From Acidobacteriota bacterium (lineage in GTDB: Bacteria; Acidobacteriota; Blastocatellia; Pyrinomonadales; Pyrinomonadaceae), in NCBI GenBank assembly GCA_018269075.1, contig JAFDVJ010000012.1:191187-255186 (forward strand): a stretch of DNA of 64,000 bases, written 5' to 3'. Within the stretch, counting starts at the first letter, position 1; each line of letters begins with the position of its first letter. This document shows positions 52,137 to 63,155 of the stretch, piece after piece. The notes beneath the pieces were generated by a model. It was given only the letters and a program-made list of their open reading frames with translations, was not told the DNA's origin and made no database searches. The translations under genes and the position numbers were made by a program.

Positions 52137-52278
52137 CGGACCGGAGCGCTGGCCGTCCCGGCTGCCAACGCCGCGACAGCGCGAACGAACGTTTCATTTT
52201 CTGCGATATTCTAAGCCGTTGAAGCGTTTGACACCGCTGGCGCGGCGTTGGCAACCGGGACGGTTGCGCTCCAGTCCG
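52137..52278. repeat. REPIN-like element, copy 1
   Basis: Left end CGGACCGGAGC with an imperfect hairpin (GCTGGCCG, TCC, CGGCTGC). Right end is the inverted perfect hairpin GCAACCG-GGA-CGGTTGC followed by GCTCCAGTCCG. Between them lies GAACGAACGTTTCATTTT...GAAGCGTTTGACACCGCTGG. Length 142, one base more than copies 59008, 60021 and 62031. Confidence 0.8.
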
Positions 52279-55085: not shown

Positions 55086-55291
55086 GGAGCGCCGGCATCC
55101 TGCCGGTAAACGGCGCGAAAGCGGCGTCAAAGCGCTTCATTTTCAGGAAGATTAAGTGAAATGAAGCGCTTTGACGCCGCTTGCCATAAGCGCGAAAGCG
55201 CGAACAAACTCCGCGCTTTCTTCGATATTGAAAGCCGGCGAAGCGTTTGACGCCGCTGGCGCGGCGTTGGCCGGCAGGATGCCGGCGCTCC
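55086..55291. repeat. REPIN-like element, subfamily B
   Basis: GGAGC + GCCGGCA + TCC + TGCCGGT (55086-55107) and the inverted GCCGGCA-GGA-TGCCGGC-GCTCC (55270-55291) end the element. Between them are smaller inverted repeats (GCGCTTCATTTTC and GAAATGAAGCGC; GCGCGAAAGCGCG). The stem differs from copies 59008, 60021 and 62031 but the flank and loop are the same. Confidence 0.8.
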
Positions 55292-57917: not shown

Positions 57918-58703
57918 ATGAAGAAAATCTTGATTGTTGACGACCACGATGATCTGGCAAGCCTTTTGAAACACGAATTTTCCAGACACGGGCACATCGT
58001 CAGGACAATTGAAAGCCGCGCCGAAGCCGTCGGCCTGATCGACGCCGAGGAATTCGATCTGGTCATCTCCGATCTCGACAACGAACAGCTTCCGCTCGAA
58101 AAAAAAGCCGACGAACCCGAATGCATCCCGGTCGCCGTCCGCAGCCCGCACACCCGCATCAAAGCCTTCAAGCTCTGCTTCTCGAATTACGAAAAAGACG
58201 AGATCGACGAGGACGAGCTGAAGTATTTCGTCAGAACGACGCTCGACTGCAAGGCCCGCTGCGTCGATCGGCGCGAGTACGTGCAGGCGATTCAGGAAAA
58301 GATCGAGTTCGAGGTGCCGAGCGTCATCGGGCTGATGAACAACATCCTCGAATACCTGATGAAACGCGTCGAAAAGGTCGGCGTCGTCAACCCGGAAACG
58401 TCCAATCTCTTCGTCGCGCTCGACGAAGCCTTCGTCAACGCCGTCAAGCACGGCAACAAATACGACCCGACGAAGCTCGTCCGGATCACGGCCGACGTCT
58501 CGCCCGAAGAGGCCCGCTTCACGATCGAGGACGAGGGCGACGGCTTCGACGTCGCCGAGATCCCCGACCCGCTCGACCCGCAGAATCTCTTCAAAACCTC
58601 CGGCCGCGGCGTCCTCTTTATCTACAACATTATGGACGAAGTCAAATACAACGAACGCGGCAACCGCCTGACGATGGTCAAGAAGCGCCGCGACGACAAT
58701 TAG
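57918..58703 (+). CDS. Receiver domain fused to anti-sigma/HATPase kinase domain
   Basis: The 261-residue protein has an N-terminal receiver-like domain (MKKILIVDDHDDLASLLKHEF; acidic residues Asp9-Asp10; likely acceptor Asp in LVISDLDNEQ). A C-terminal HATPase of RsbW/SpoIIAB type follows: N-box ALDEAFVNAVKHGNKYDP, G1 IEDEGDGFDVAEIPDP, G2 TSGRGVLFIYNIMDEV. The middle contains cysteines (FSNYEKDE, LDCKARCVDRRE). The receiver may gate an anti-sigma-factor kinase, linking two-component and partner-switching signalling; no anti-anti-sigma partner is visible nearby. The stop TAG is followed at once by a GATTTCG repeat arm. Confidence 0.8.
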   Translation: MKKILIVDDHDDLASLLKHEFSRHGHIVRTIESRAEAVGLIDAEEFDLVISDLDNEQLPLEKKADEPECIPVAVRSPHTRIKAFKLCFSNYEKDEIDEDELKYFVRTTLDCKARCVDRREYVQAIQEKIEFEVPSVIGLMNNILEYLMKRVEKVGVVNPETSNLFVALDEAFVNAVKHGNKYDPTKLVRITADVSPEEARFTIEDEGDGFDVAEIPDPLDPQNLFKTSGRGVLFIYNIMDEVKYNERGNRLTMVKKRRDDN

Positions 58704-58739
58704 GATTTCGGATTTCGGATTTCGGATTTCGGATTTCGG
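58704..58739. repeat. Single arm of GATTTCG heptamers
   Basis: Five units of GATTTCG start at the stop codon of the preceding gene. No inverted partner was found in the next 300 bases. Confidence 0.8.
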
Positions 58740-58802: not shown

Positions 58803-58969
58803 CCGCAGACCGGCTCAAAGCTGCCGCAAACCGAGTCGAAGCCTCCGCAAACCGGCTCGAAGCCTCCGCAAGGCAGCTCGACGTCCCCGCAAGGCAAGTC
58901 GATGTCGCCGCAAGGCAGGTCGATGTCGCCGCAAGGCAGGTCGATGTTCCGCAAGGTAAGTCGAAGTCC
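58803..58969. repeat. 21-bp minisatellite, eight units
   Basis: Eight units of CCGCAAACCGGCTCGAAGCCT/CCGCAAGGCAGGTCGATGTCG run from 58803 to 58969; one unit is 20 bases. Period 21 is the same as at 51048, though the sequence differs. Open frames across it are a consequence of the period. Confidence 0.88.
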
Positions 58970-59007
58970 CCGCAGGCCGTCCGGATTGCCCGCCGGCGAC
59001 GCGGCCG

Positions 59008-59148
59008 CGGACTGGAGCGCAACCGTCCCGGTTGCCATGAGCGCGACAGCGCGAACAAGCGTTTCGTTTTCCCTGACGTTGAAAGCTGGTGAAACGCCTG
59101 ACACCGCTAACGCGGCGTTGGCAACCGGGACGGTTGCGCTCCAGTCCG
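59008..59148. repeat. REPIN-like element, copy 2 (141 bp)
   Basis: CGGACTGGAGC (59008-59018), hairpin GCAACCG-TCC-CGGTTGC (59019-59035), inner segment, inverted hairpin (59121-59137), GCTCCAGTCCG (59138-59148). The inner segment is in reverse orientation compared with copies 60021 and 62031. It lies about 130 bases downstream of the RAYT stop codon. Confidence 0.88.
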
Positions 59149-59171
59149 CTGCCGCGCTGATGCCGGGCATT

Positions 59172-59250
59172 ATTACCGGCGCTCCAGTCCGCTGCCGCGC
59201 TGCCGGCGGGCGGGACGGTTGCGCTCCAGTCCGCTGCCGCGCCGCCAGCG
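59172..59250. repeat. Partial REP copies between REPIN and RAYT gene
   Basis: CGGCGCTCCAGTCCGCTGCC (59178-59197) and CGGGACGGTTGCGCTCCAGTCCG (about 59213-59235) are single, truncated right-end copies. GCGGGCATT repeats near them. Confidence 0.75.
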
Positions 59251-59280
59251 GGCATTACTCACGGCGCACCGGTCGCGGGG

Positions 59281-59910
59281 TTATTTTATCGGCTCCTCCG
59301 ATTTCGCCTGAGCCTTATAATAGGCGCTCGAAAAACGCCATTCGGCGGCGCTCTCGCAGAGCCGGGCCTTGACCGGATTATTTTCGATGTATCTGACGAC
59401 GTTCGCGTAATGACGGCGGCTGCGGATATAGCGGTCGAACGGTTCGTGCTGCCAGAACTGTCCGCGCCGGCGCAGCAGTTTATTGGCCTCGTGCGCCGTG
59501 TATGACTTGATCGAATGCGCGATTTCGGCGAGTTCGACGCCGGCCCGCGGCGTCGCCAGAAAATGCAGATGGTTCGGCATCACGACCCACGCCGCCAGCT
59601 CGTATTTCGAGCCGGCGTGAAAAAACAAACCGTCCTCGATCAATTCGCCGATCCGCGCATCCTTCAGAAAACAGCTTCCGAAACCCTTATCCAGATAGTT
59701 TTCGATGTTTTTCCGAAATTTGACGCGGCCCGCTTCGTCGGCGTCGGTTTCCTCGCGCCATTTTTCGACGACCGCCGCCGGCAGCGAATCGAAAAGCCGA
59801 AAAGTTAAGAACTGGGCCGTTTCGCCGGCTTCGAAATGAGGAATATAGCCGCGATCGTACCAACCCAAACCGGAGCGGAGGCCCTTCGGTTGAAAGTTAT
59901 GGTTGAGCAT
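59281..59910 (-). CDS. REP-associated tyrosine transposase (RAYT, Y1 family)
   Basis: The 209-residue protein is a Y1 transposase-like (IS200/IS605-type) domain without other modules. It contains FLTFRLFDSLPAAVVEKW, the metal-binding HUH motif in MPNHLHFLATP, then FWQHEPFDRYIRSRRHYANVVRYIENNPVKA, a conserved RAYT block. RAYTs cut and join REP palindromes with a GTAG/GGAG-type 5' tetranucleotide. Here the gene is flanked by GGAGC-hairpin elements on both sides (59008-59250 and 60021-60161), just the arrangement expected for a RAYT and its REPs. The gene seems intact, single copy in the window, and ends in a short basic/acidic tail. Confidence 0.9.
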   Translation of the reverse strand: MLNHNFQPKGLRSGLGWYDRGYIPHFEAGETAQFLTFRLFDSLPAAVVEKWREETDADEAGRVKFRKNIENYLDKGFGSCFLKDARIGELIEDGLFFHAGSKYELAAWVVMPNHLHFLATPRAGVELAEIAHSIKSYTAHEANKLLRRRGQFWQHEPFDRYIRSRRHYANVVRYIENNPVKARLCESAAEWRFSSAYYKAQAKSEEPIK

Positions 59911-60020
59911 AGTGTTTCAGTGATACGCGATCAAAGAAAAAAAGGCAAGCACCGGAAGGCAAACCGCCCGCCGAAAACACAAAATCGGCCGGAACGCGAA
60001 GTCCGACCGGAGCGCGGCCG

Positions 60021-60161
60021 CGGACTGGAGCGCAACCGTCCCGGTTGCTAACGCCGCGTTAGCGGTGTCAGGCGCTTCGCCGGCTTAGGACATCAGGGAA
60101 AATGAAACGTTCGTTCGCGCTGTCGCGCTCATGGCAACCGGGACGGTTGCGCTCCAGTCCG
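60021..60161. repeat. REPIN-like element, copy 3 (141 bp)
   Basis: CGGACTGGAGC, hairpin GCAACCG-TCC-CGGTTGC (60032-60048), inner segment, inverted hairpin (60134-60150), GCTCCAGTCCG to 60161. A further truncated copy (GGACGGCCAGCGCTCCGGTCCG) lies at 60182-60203. It is upstream of the RAYT start. Confidence 0.88.
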
Positions 60162-60330
60162 CTTTCGCGTTCCGGCGGGCGGGACGGCCAGCGCTCCGGT
60201 CCGCTTTCGCGCCGCCGGCGGGCGGCGATCGAGATTCAAAAGACGATGAACCGGCCCAACGGCGCGCCGCTCGCCGAAGATTACCCGGAAGGATAGAATA
60301 TTTTGCGAAAATCGGCCAGAATATTTATCG

Positions 60331-62013
60331 ATGAAGGTAACAATCGGACAAATCAACACGACCAACGGCGACCTCGACGGGAATGTCGCGAAGATCGTCG
60401 GCGCGATCGAAAAGGCGAAGGCGGACGGCGCGGACCTGATCGTCTTTCCCGAGGTCTGCACGCACGGCTACACTTCGCTCGACTGGTTTCAGGACCGCGA
60501 CATCGTCGCGCACGCGCTCGACCCGCTCGCAAAGATCATCCCGGCGACCGCGGGCATCACGGCCGTCGTCGGGACGATCCGGCCGAACGAATCGCCCGAC
60601 GGACGCCGTTTATTTAACACCGCCGCCGTCATCTCCGACGGCAAACTCGTGCGCTTCGTCGACAAGAGCCTGCTGCCGGAATACGACGTCTTCGACGACC
60701 CGCGCTATTTCGAGCCCGACCAGACGCACGACGGCATCGTCGAGGTCGCGGGCCGCGACGGACGGACGCACCGCCTCGGCGTCGTCGTCTGCGAGGATTT
60801 CTGGAACGATAAGACTTTCTGGAAAGAAAGGCTTTACGCGCACGACCCGACCGACACGGTGATCGACAACAAGGCCGAGATCGTCGTCGCGGTCAACGCC
60901 TCGCCGTACAACAAGGGCAAGATCCGTTTGCGCTGCGAGATGGTCGCGCACCGCGCGCGCGCGGCCCGGACGCCGGTCGTTTTCGTCAATCTCGTCGGCG
61001 GCAACGACGGCATCGTCTTCGACGGCGCGAGCCTCATCGCCGACGCGGAGGGCGACATCATCCTGCAGGCGCCGGCGTTCGCGGAATTCGTCGAATCGGT
61101 CGAGATCGACTGCCGCAAACCCGACGCGCGCGGCATCACCGGCGGCGAAACGAGCGCGATCCACGACGCGCTCGTTTTGGGCATCCGCGATTACGCGCGC
61201 AAGAACCGCTTTTCGAAATGCGTGCTCGGTCTTTCGGGCGGCATCGATTCGGCGCTCGTCGCGGCGCTCGCGGCCGAAGCGATCGGCCCGCAAAATCTGC
61301 TCTGCGTGATGATGCCGTCGCCGTTCTCGTCCGAGGGCAGCATCAGGGATTCGGAGGAACTGGTGCGAAACCTCGGCTGCGAATCGCGGATCGAACCGAT
61401 CTCGGGCGCGTTCGAAGTCCTTTCGGCGCAATTGCATCTCGACAAACCGACGCGCGGCGGCGAGAATCTCGCGGCCGAGAATATGCAGTCGCGGCTGCGC
61501 GGCGTGATCCTGATGGCGATCTCGAACGCCGAGGGCCGGCTGCTTTTGTCGACCGGCAACAAATCGGAGCTCGCCGTCGGCTACTGCACCTTGTACGGCG
61601 ACACGAACGGCGGCCTCGCCGTTCTGGGCGACTGTCTGAAGACCGAGGTCTGGGAGATCGCCCGCGACATCAACGCGCGCGCCGGCCGCGAGGTGATCCC
61701 CGTCAAGATCATCGACAAAAAGCCGTCGGCCGAGCTCGCGCCGAACCAGTTCGACCAGGATTCCCTTCCGCCCTACGAATTGATGGACCCGATTCTCGAG
61801 CTCTATTTCGAAAACAAGTTCGCGCCGACCGAGATCGTCGCCGCCGGCCACGACGCCGCGCTCGTCTACGAGATCTTAAACAAGGTCGAGCATCCGGCGA
61901 ACGAATTCAAGCGCCGCCAGCTGCCGCCGACGATCATCATCTCGAAAAACGCGATCGGCGTCGGCCGCCGCCGTCCCGTCACGCATCGCTACCGGCGCAA
62001 TCCGGCCGGCTAA
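60331..62013 (+). CDS. nadE: Glutamine-dependent NAD+ synthetase
   Basis: The 560-residue enzyme has an N-terminal nitrilase-type glutaminase domain (about 1-260) with Glu in FPEVCTHGY, Lys in DKSLLPEYDVFDD and Cys in VVVCEDFW. A C-terminal NAD synthetase domain (about 275-550) has the P-loop GLSGGIDSALVAAL and STGNKSELAVGYCTLYGD. It makes NAD+ from nicotinic acid adenine dinucleotide with glutamine as nitrogen source. The length and order match the two-domain NadE. REPIN copies flank the gene on both sides. Confidence 0.94.
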   Translation: MKVTIGQINTTNGDLDGNVAKIVGAIEKAKADGADLIVFPEVCTHGYTSLDWFQDRDIVAHALDPLAKIIPATAGITAVVGTIRPNESPDGRRLFNTAAVISDGKLVRFVDKSLLPEYDVFDDPRYFEPDQTHDGIVEVAGRDGRTHRLGVVVCEDFWNDKTFWKERLYAHDPTDTVIDNKAEIVVAVNASPYNKGKIRLRCEMVAHRARAARTPVVFVNLVGGNDGIVFDGASLIADAEGDIILQAPAFAEFVESVEIDCRKPDARGITGGETSAIHDALVLGIRDYARKNRFSKCVLGLSGGIDSALVAALAAEAIGPQNLLCVMMPSPFSSEGSIRDSEELVRNLGCESRIEPISGAFEVLSAQLHLDKPTRGGENLAAENMQSRLRGVILMAISNAEGRLLLSTGNKSELAVGYCTLYGDTNGGLAVLGDCLKTEVWEIARDINARAGREVIPVKIIDKKPSAELAPNQFDQDSLPPYELMDPILELYFENKFAPTEIVAAGHDAALVYEILNKVEHPANEFKRRQLPPTIIISKNAIGVGRRRPVTHRYRRNPAG

Positions 62014-62030: not shown

Positions 62031-62171
62031 CGGACTGGAGCGCAACCGTCCCGGTTGCCAACGCCGCGCCAGCGGTGTCAAACGTTTCACCGGCTTAGAA
62101 TATCGAATAAGATGAAACGTTCGTTCGCGCTGTCGCGCTCATTGCAACCGGGACGGTTGCGCTCCAGTCCG
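62031..62171. repeat. REPIN-like element, copy 4 (141 bp)
   Basis: CGGACTGGAGC (62031-62041), hairpin GCAACCG-TCC-CGGTTGC (62042-62058), inner segment containing ACGTTTCACC and GATGAAACGT, inverted hairpin (62144-62160), GCTCCAGTCCG to 62171. Orientation matches copy 3. Confidence 0.9.
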
Positions 62172-63025: not shown

Positions 63026-63155
63026 GGAGCGCCGGCATCCTGCCGGCAATGCGTTTGCAAAACGCAAACAGCGCTTCATTTTCGCGTAGATTAAAAGTAA
63101 ATGAAACGTCGGTACGCCGCTTTCGCGCCGTTTGCCGGCAGGATGCCGGCGCTCC
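63026..63155. repeat. REPIN-like element, subfamily B (130 bp)
   Basis: GGAGC-GCCGGCA-TCC-TGCCGGC (63026-63047) and its inverted copy (63134-63155) flank an inner segment with GCGCTTCATTTTCGCG and AAATGAAACGTCGG. A partial GGAGCGCCGGCA lies at 63009-63020. Confidence 0.88.

Follow-up and report, generated by a model that had tools for sequence, protein, structure and literature searches.

The RAYT locus at positions 59008–60161 of the window (the whole 64,000-nucleotide stretch of DNA that was analysed; G000:C33:191187–255186, from an assembly of 7.41 Mb in 169 contigs that is 86% complete) is, taken as a whole, probably best explained as a REPtron, in which the gene of a single-strand-specific HUH/Y1 transposase would be bracketed by non-autonomous elements of its own (types A and D) with polar ends of two hairpins each. 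The evidence comprises the anatomy of the locus, the copy number of the hairpins, clade-specific tags, covariation of the stem arms, unequal element halves and full-length matches between elements at related loci.

Organisation of the RAYT locus

The features identified in the window are as follows, with the basis of each in brackets.

59281–59910, minus strand: RAYT (REP-associated tyrosine transposase), 209 aa (NF047646, PF01797, invariant residues, AlphaFold2/Foldseek)
59008–59148, plus strand: type A REPIN, 141 bp; the conserved unit reaches ca. 59000–59156 (sequence, end consensus, DNA fold z −11.4)
60021–60161, minus strand: type A REPIN, 141 bp, across the RAYT gene from the preceding copy and in opposite internal orientation (sequence)
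62031–62171, minus strand: type A REPIN, 141 bp, downstream of an NAD synthetase-like gene at 60331–62013 (sequence, DNA fold z −10.9)
52251–52272, minus strand: single type A REP hairpin (pattern match)
59206–59227, minus strand: decayed type A REP, GGAGCGCAACCGTCCCGCCCGC, in a tandem array adjoining the RAYT stop codon (pattern match, repeat scan)
60176–60197, minus strand: decayed REP on the start-codon side of the RAYT gene, beyond the second REPIN
55086–55291, no strand assigned: type B composite element, 206 bp, with two inverted B hairpins (sequence)
63026–63155, no strand assigned: type B REPIN, 130 bp, with companion hairpins ATGCGTTT... (M3) and AAACGGCGC... (M2) (sequence)

The 209 aa protein matched PF01797 and scored 87.7 bits with the curated profile NF047646 (cut-off 80). 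Its motifs are HUH N113-H114-L-H116, WQ at 153–154 and the catalytic Y174 within YIENNP; H114, H116 and Y174 were invariant across 38 aligned sequences, as is characteristic of an HUH enzyme with a single catalytic tyrosine. An AlphaFold2 model (pLDDT 85.9) was searched with Foldseek; the top PDB match (E 2.2e-8; TM 0.71 by target length) was 4er8, in which the E. coli RAYT is complexed with a REP hairpin; IS200/IS605 transposases came next, and 4er8 was also the sole match in the sequence search. One PHROGs family of unknown function was matched. The nearest RAYT relatives were found in Pyrinomonadaceae and other acidobacterial MAGs, in agreement with the acidobacterial-type genome proposed in an earlier note that was made from the sequence of this DNA. 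As with RAYT/TnpAREP genes, inverted hairpins flank the gene and also occur dispersed in the genome.

The anatomy outlined in the earlier note was confirmed. The gene lies between inverted-hairpin elements, and the copies at 59008, 60021 and 62031 are all exactly 141 bp long; all three start and stop with CGGACTGGAGC...GCTCCAGTCCG, their ends being inverted GGAGC-GCAACCG-TCC-CGGTTGC hairpins. One copy was described there as internally reversed; it is the copy at 59008, which agrees with the other two at 123–130 of 141 positions after reversal and at 97–100 in the same orientation. The second stem type (type B, GCCGGCA/TGCCGGC) was also present as described, with a terminal mismatch at 55086 (GCCGGCA/TGCCGGT) and perfect at 63026; inverted partners at 55291 and 63155, which had not been listed, were located in addition. 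A 42–43 bp tandem array with decayed REPs adjoins the RAYT gene (59126–59274). A 21 bp tandem repeat, CCGCAAGGCAGGTCGATGTCC, of ca. eight units was noted at 58803–58974 beside a 7 bp tandem repeat, GGATTTC (58703–58739). An Rfam search gave no family and just sub-threshold hairpin matches to microRNA models.

A GGAG-type tetranucleotide had been presented as an established RAYT recognition tag; this could not be upheld from the literature searched, in which the published REP tag is GT[AG]G (PMC3686654, PMC6006769). GT[AG]G was absent from both RAYT flanks (58990–59280 and 59911–60240). The flanks were also compared with those of TIRtrons. Acidobacterial RAYT relatives with terminal inverted repeats (TIRs), some of them "double palindromic", were reported in 2013, in the portion of that publication accessible here (PMC3733652), and the present locus could be a TIRtron of this kind, a RAYT relative with long TIRs. 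This is very improbable, since the ends here consist of a tag and a short hairpin arranged in REPIN pairs and the TIR motif GGGGWSAS, which occurs in some but not all described TIRs, had no match on either strand of 58901–60350.

Hairpin and REPIN census

The genome-wide count that the earlier note had suggested was carried out. In 7.4 Mb, 42 exact type A hairpins (50 with up to three mismatches) and about 88 exact type B hairpins (165 with up to three mismatches) were found, and the same patterns read backwards gave 0 matches. The general pattern GGAGCGCN5TCCN5GC matched 163 times versus 7 in the control. Further stem types in the genome were C (GCGGGCA), D (GCAAGCG; rare) and E (GCCGTCA). 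As in canonical REPs, a palindrome thus stands beside a tag, with variable sequence and high copy number.

From selected stretches of the genome, so that the counts are lower bounds, at least 61 REPINs (two inverted REPs in one short unit) were assembled, as well as at least 61 single hairpins. The tag-to-tag length was 128–130 bp in most REPINs, independent of stem type. Five REPINs had mixed ends (A/B in two, B/D in two, A/D in one); the two B/D elements have near-identical flanks and possibly represent one event. Three more paired a B end with an E-like end. Some B ends adjoin interiors resembling those of type A, and the separation of the types is thus incomplete. Mixed doublets are likewise rare in Pseudomonas fluorescens SBW25 (PMC3116915).

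Two side observations were made during the census. Three type B REPINs (L019, L144 and L193, on contigs C3, C44 and C132) share identical outer flanks and therefore lie within larger duplicated or mobile sequence. GTAG-tagged hairpins also occur in this genome: GTAGC-CACGGGC/GCCCGTG and GTAGC-CCGCAGC hairpins are located near an IS200-like gene on contig C130 (L125:2842–3137).

Element borders

Type A ends are conserved outward to CGCGnnnGCGGACT, which directly precedes GGAGC; because the conservation runs beyond the hairpins, the dispersed unit is ca. 157 bp long rather than 141 bp. CT stands immediately 5′ of the tag at 34 of 36 type A ends and at all five type D ends, the D flank being the same as that of A. 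In other RAYTs, CT is a mapped cut site, the GTAG motif has a part in selecting where cleavage takes place (CT, CA), and for group 3 enzymes the loop is important (PMC8266576). Type B ends are without the GACT flank, have mostly AC or CC, not CT, before the tag, and carry information near zero beyond it. From these border profiles, A and B ends differ outside the hairpin too, and the units are dispersed.

A clade of GG-tagged RAYTs

The flanks of 113 RAYT loci were scanned for GGNNC-GC hairpins; the scan replaced a strict two-sided hairpin search, which had missed many flank REPs. Up to 320 bp from the gene, hairpin density was 3.04 per kb; at distances above 800 bp it was 0.11 per kb. GG-NN-CGC hairpins were present at 79 of the 113 loci, with 45 different 7 bp stems and the tags GGAGC (37), GGAAC (24), GGACC (10), GGTTC (4), GGTAC (2) and two singletons. 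All 79 loci have C at the sixth position of the stem arm, though the scan did not require it. When hairpins were collected with the stem requirement removed, 69% of the four variable stem positions paired, versus a mean of 41% and a maximum of 49% in 500 re-pairings of the arms.

In a quick RAYT tree with midpoint root, all 79 tagged RAYTs fell inside a single group, which comprises 90 rows and is set on a long branch (1.06; SH-aLRT 87), and none of the 23 RAYTs outside this group had tag hairpins. The clade includes members from Acidobacteriota, Planctomycetota, Verrucomicrobiota, Kiritimatiellota, Chloroflexota, Armatimonadota, Pseudomonadota, Bacteroidota, Chlorobiota, Latescibacterota and Tectimicrobiota. 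Tag NN, stem and loop change along the enzyme tree, with fewer state changes observed than after shuffling (tag NN, 19 vs. 36.5; stem position 3, 21 vs. 36; loop base, 11 vs. 25), figures that are inflated by near copies and are not to be read as probabilities. The clade offers a natural series, in which more than 40 stems and several tags correspond to enzyme lineages and which makes RAYT–REP recognition directly testable.

One member of the clade (L284:1229–4075; G056:C2) lies in frame inside a long ORF, the outer parts of which read like acyl-CoA/acetyl-CoA synthetase, and the repeats flanking the RAYT insert are translated through. Similar frames of 900–1060 aa occur in G057, G058, G059, G061, G064, G067, G082 and G083; possibly this is a non-disruptive insertion common to several species.

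Assignment of element types to RAYT lineages

REPINs of types A and D and the mixed REPINs had their best full-length matches among the REPINs at loci L039/L250 (70–71% over 131 bp), and the RAYT of these loci is the nearest relative of the window RAYT (67% protein identity). Type E, B/E and part of the type B REPINs matched best with REPINs at L066/L073 (74–76% over 132–139 bp), a lineage with GGAAC-GCCGTCA hairpins; type C REPINs matched best at L278. Most type B REPINs had no full-length match at other RAYT loci, and their assignment therefore rests on the stem and on intermediates. Ten Y1 genes are present in the assembly, two of which belong to the clade in the tree: the window RAYT and a second RAYT on contig C37, flanked by type C hairpins. 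None of these ten genes is a B-flanked RAYT, and a search of the 86%-complete assembly for relatives of the L066 protein likewise recovered no RAYT of that lineage. A weak L066 match on contig C88 (ca. 27 kb; L283:962–1651) was considered as the B-cognate RAYT and rejected, being a different Y1 gene of 229 aa with other flanking repeats, namely several copies of a GCGCTGGCGACCGGCG-type repeat, not GGNNC hairpins. Judged by sequence relationships, types A and D most likely belong to the window RAYT, types B and E to another RAYT lineage that is missing or unassembled here, and type C to the C37 RAYT.

The earlier note had suggested that this enzyme moves both subfamilies; a RAYT with REPINs of its own (A and D) was borne out, and the extension to the second subfamily was not, in view of the matches of E, B/E and part of B to the L066/L073 lineage. 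If the window RAYT read just GGAGC and the TCC loop, so that stem sequence were irrelevant, it could nevertheless move both A and B. The two types do have an identical tag and loop, REPINs joining A/B (two), B/D (two) and A/D (one) exist along with B ends on A-like interiors, the loop contributes much and the stem sequence little in other RAYTs (PMC8266576), and the assembly yielded no B-cognate RAYT. We regard such a shared enzyme as unlikely: full-length matches link E, B/E and part of B to another RAYT lineage and A and D to that of the window RAYT, stem and tag track the RAYT tree, B ends are without the GACT flank found at A and D, and A or D is joined to a B end in just 4 of 61 REPINs. 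Separate cognate enzymes for A/D and for B/E are thus preferred. REPINs with mixed ends illustrate a way in which a REP family could exchange one stem for another.

Unequal REPIN halves

A second, companion hairpin lies behind each REP of the own-genome REPINs analysed, and such a hairpin was found after 38% of flank REPs, the corresponding figures being 14% for upstream stretches and 5% for shuffles. Companions nearly always differ between the halves of a REPIN. Of the two halves of a type A REPIN, one carries M1 (ATGAGCGC...GCGCGAAC) and the other M2 (AACGCCG...CGGTGTC); type B has mostly M2 with M3 (ATGCGTTT...AAACGCAAAC), and type E has M4 with M6. None of the A–A or B–B REPINs assembled had equal companions. 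In a classification-free test on 15 type A and 28 type B REPINs, none of 1000 re-pairings gave a half-to-half similarity as low as that observed, for either type, and G016 and G112 showed the same trend (74 and 83 of 1000 re-pairings as low); related copies are non-independent, so support comes from repetition across lineages and not from these permutation counts. Unequal halves were not significant in G092 or in the mixed set from the own genome. Hairpins resembling M1 were also seen in G016, G092 and G112, combined there with different REP stems.

DNA folding predicts that the single strand keeps three separate hairpin arms; an artificial symmetric element folds to one long hairpin, which is a consistency check and not evidence, as symmetry forces such a collapse. 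We infer that unequal companions would keep the three arms apart and mark left and right ends. It is about as probable as its opposite that this applies more widely, i.e. that a RAYT clade with GG-NN-CGC tags spanning phyla moves polar REPINs with identical outer hairpins, a TGAGCGCG-type companion at one end and a different one at the other, the ends being told apart as in IS200/IS605 and the stems being swappable between families while the interior stays.

Mobility and proposed mechanism

In G030 (same genus, different species, 98% complete), nadE (79% identical) is next to the response-regulator gene (65%), and the interval between them contains neither a RAYT gene nor tag hairpins, which fits gain in the window genome or loss in G030. 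Elsewhere G030 has 22 pattern matches, and G003 has 19; no clade RAYT was detected in either of these same-family genomes, and the matches in G030 may be orphans. The outcome that the earlier note had named as refuting its reading, elements abundant in genomes without this RAYT, therefore occurs in part. Of 119 genomes, all six with at least 40 matches have a clade RAYT (Fisher p=0.007, with the threshold picked after seeing the data). A rank test of copy number against RAYT presence over the 119 genomes was not significant (p=0.32), the effect being confined to the tail.

The matches in G003 and G030, the many single or decayed copies and the description of RAYTs as domesticated transposases (PMC8266576) would all suit hairpins that are immobile relics or host-selected sites (terminators, mRNA ends, nucleoid sites) beside a domesticated RAYT that no longer moves them. 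Dozens of dispersed perfect hairpins, sharp borders within unrelated flanking sequence, and tags matched to the flanking RAYT lineage at 79 genomic loci make this quite unlikely, and elements moved by their own RAYT remain the preferred reading.

On this preferred reading, the enzyme would most likely bind single-stranded DNA in its folded form, with contacts at the GG-NN-C tag, the stem foot and the C-rich loop. Cleavage would occur beside the tag, the probable position in type A being behind the CT that immediately precedes GGAGC (CT^GGAGC), and a REPIN with identical inverted outer hairpins would be excised or copied. As stem bases would need only to pair, they could drift in a compensatory manner together with two tag positions, each RAYT lineage evolving alongside its own elements. 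An element end would consist of tag hairpin plus companion hairpin, and companions that differ between ends would distinguish a left end from a right one, as with LE and RE in IS200/IS605, and would keep the middle from forming one long hairpin.

Comparison with known systems

No description of GG-tagged REPs or of unequal REPIN halves was found in the open literature, to which the search was confined; unequal ends would give REPINs a polarity that is undescribed in the literature searched. A 2018 survey took GT[AG]G as its search tag, and other feet (CnGA, class 3) came to light there through manual inspection alone (PMC6006769); a GG-tagged branch would therefore have been missed.

The system resembles canonical REPIN/RAYT systems (E. 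coli, Pseudomonas, Stenotrophomonas) in its HUH/Y1 protein with a RAYT profile, REP-flanked gene, inverted REP pairs 100–140 bp apart, many dispersed copies and a REP family of its own for each enzyme lineage. It differs from them in the tag (GGNNC, not GT[AG]G), the invariant CGC foot, C at stem position 6 and a C-rich loop, in the companion hairpin behind many REPs and the difference between the two companions of a REPIN, and in a branch that, in this sample, lies mainly outside the Gammaproteobacteria. TIRtrons/TIRYTs, as far as the accessible part of the source describes them (PMC3733652), are also RAYT relatives, acidobacterial ones included, with inverted repeats other than GTAG REPs; compared by motif and description only, the elements here are unlike them in having no GGGGWSAS and in being short-hairpin REPINs in high copy. 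With IS200/IS605 (IS608, ISDra2), the system shares the HUH/Y1 fold, a short tag 5′ of the end hairpin and unequal left and right ends; unlike those elements, the REPINs here are without an internal transposase gene, and their outer hairpins are identical and inverted, the inner ones alone being different.
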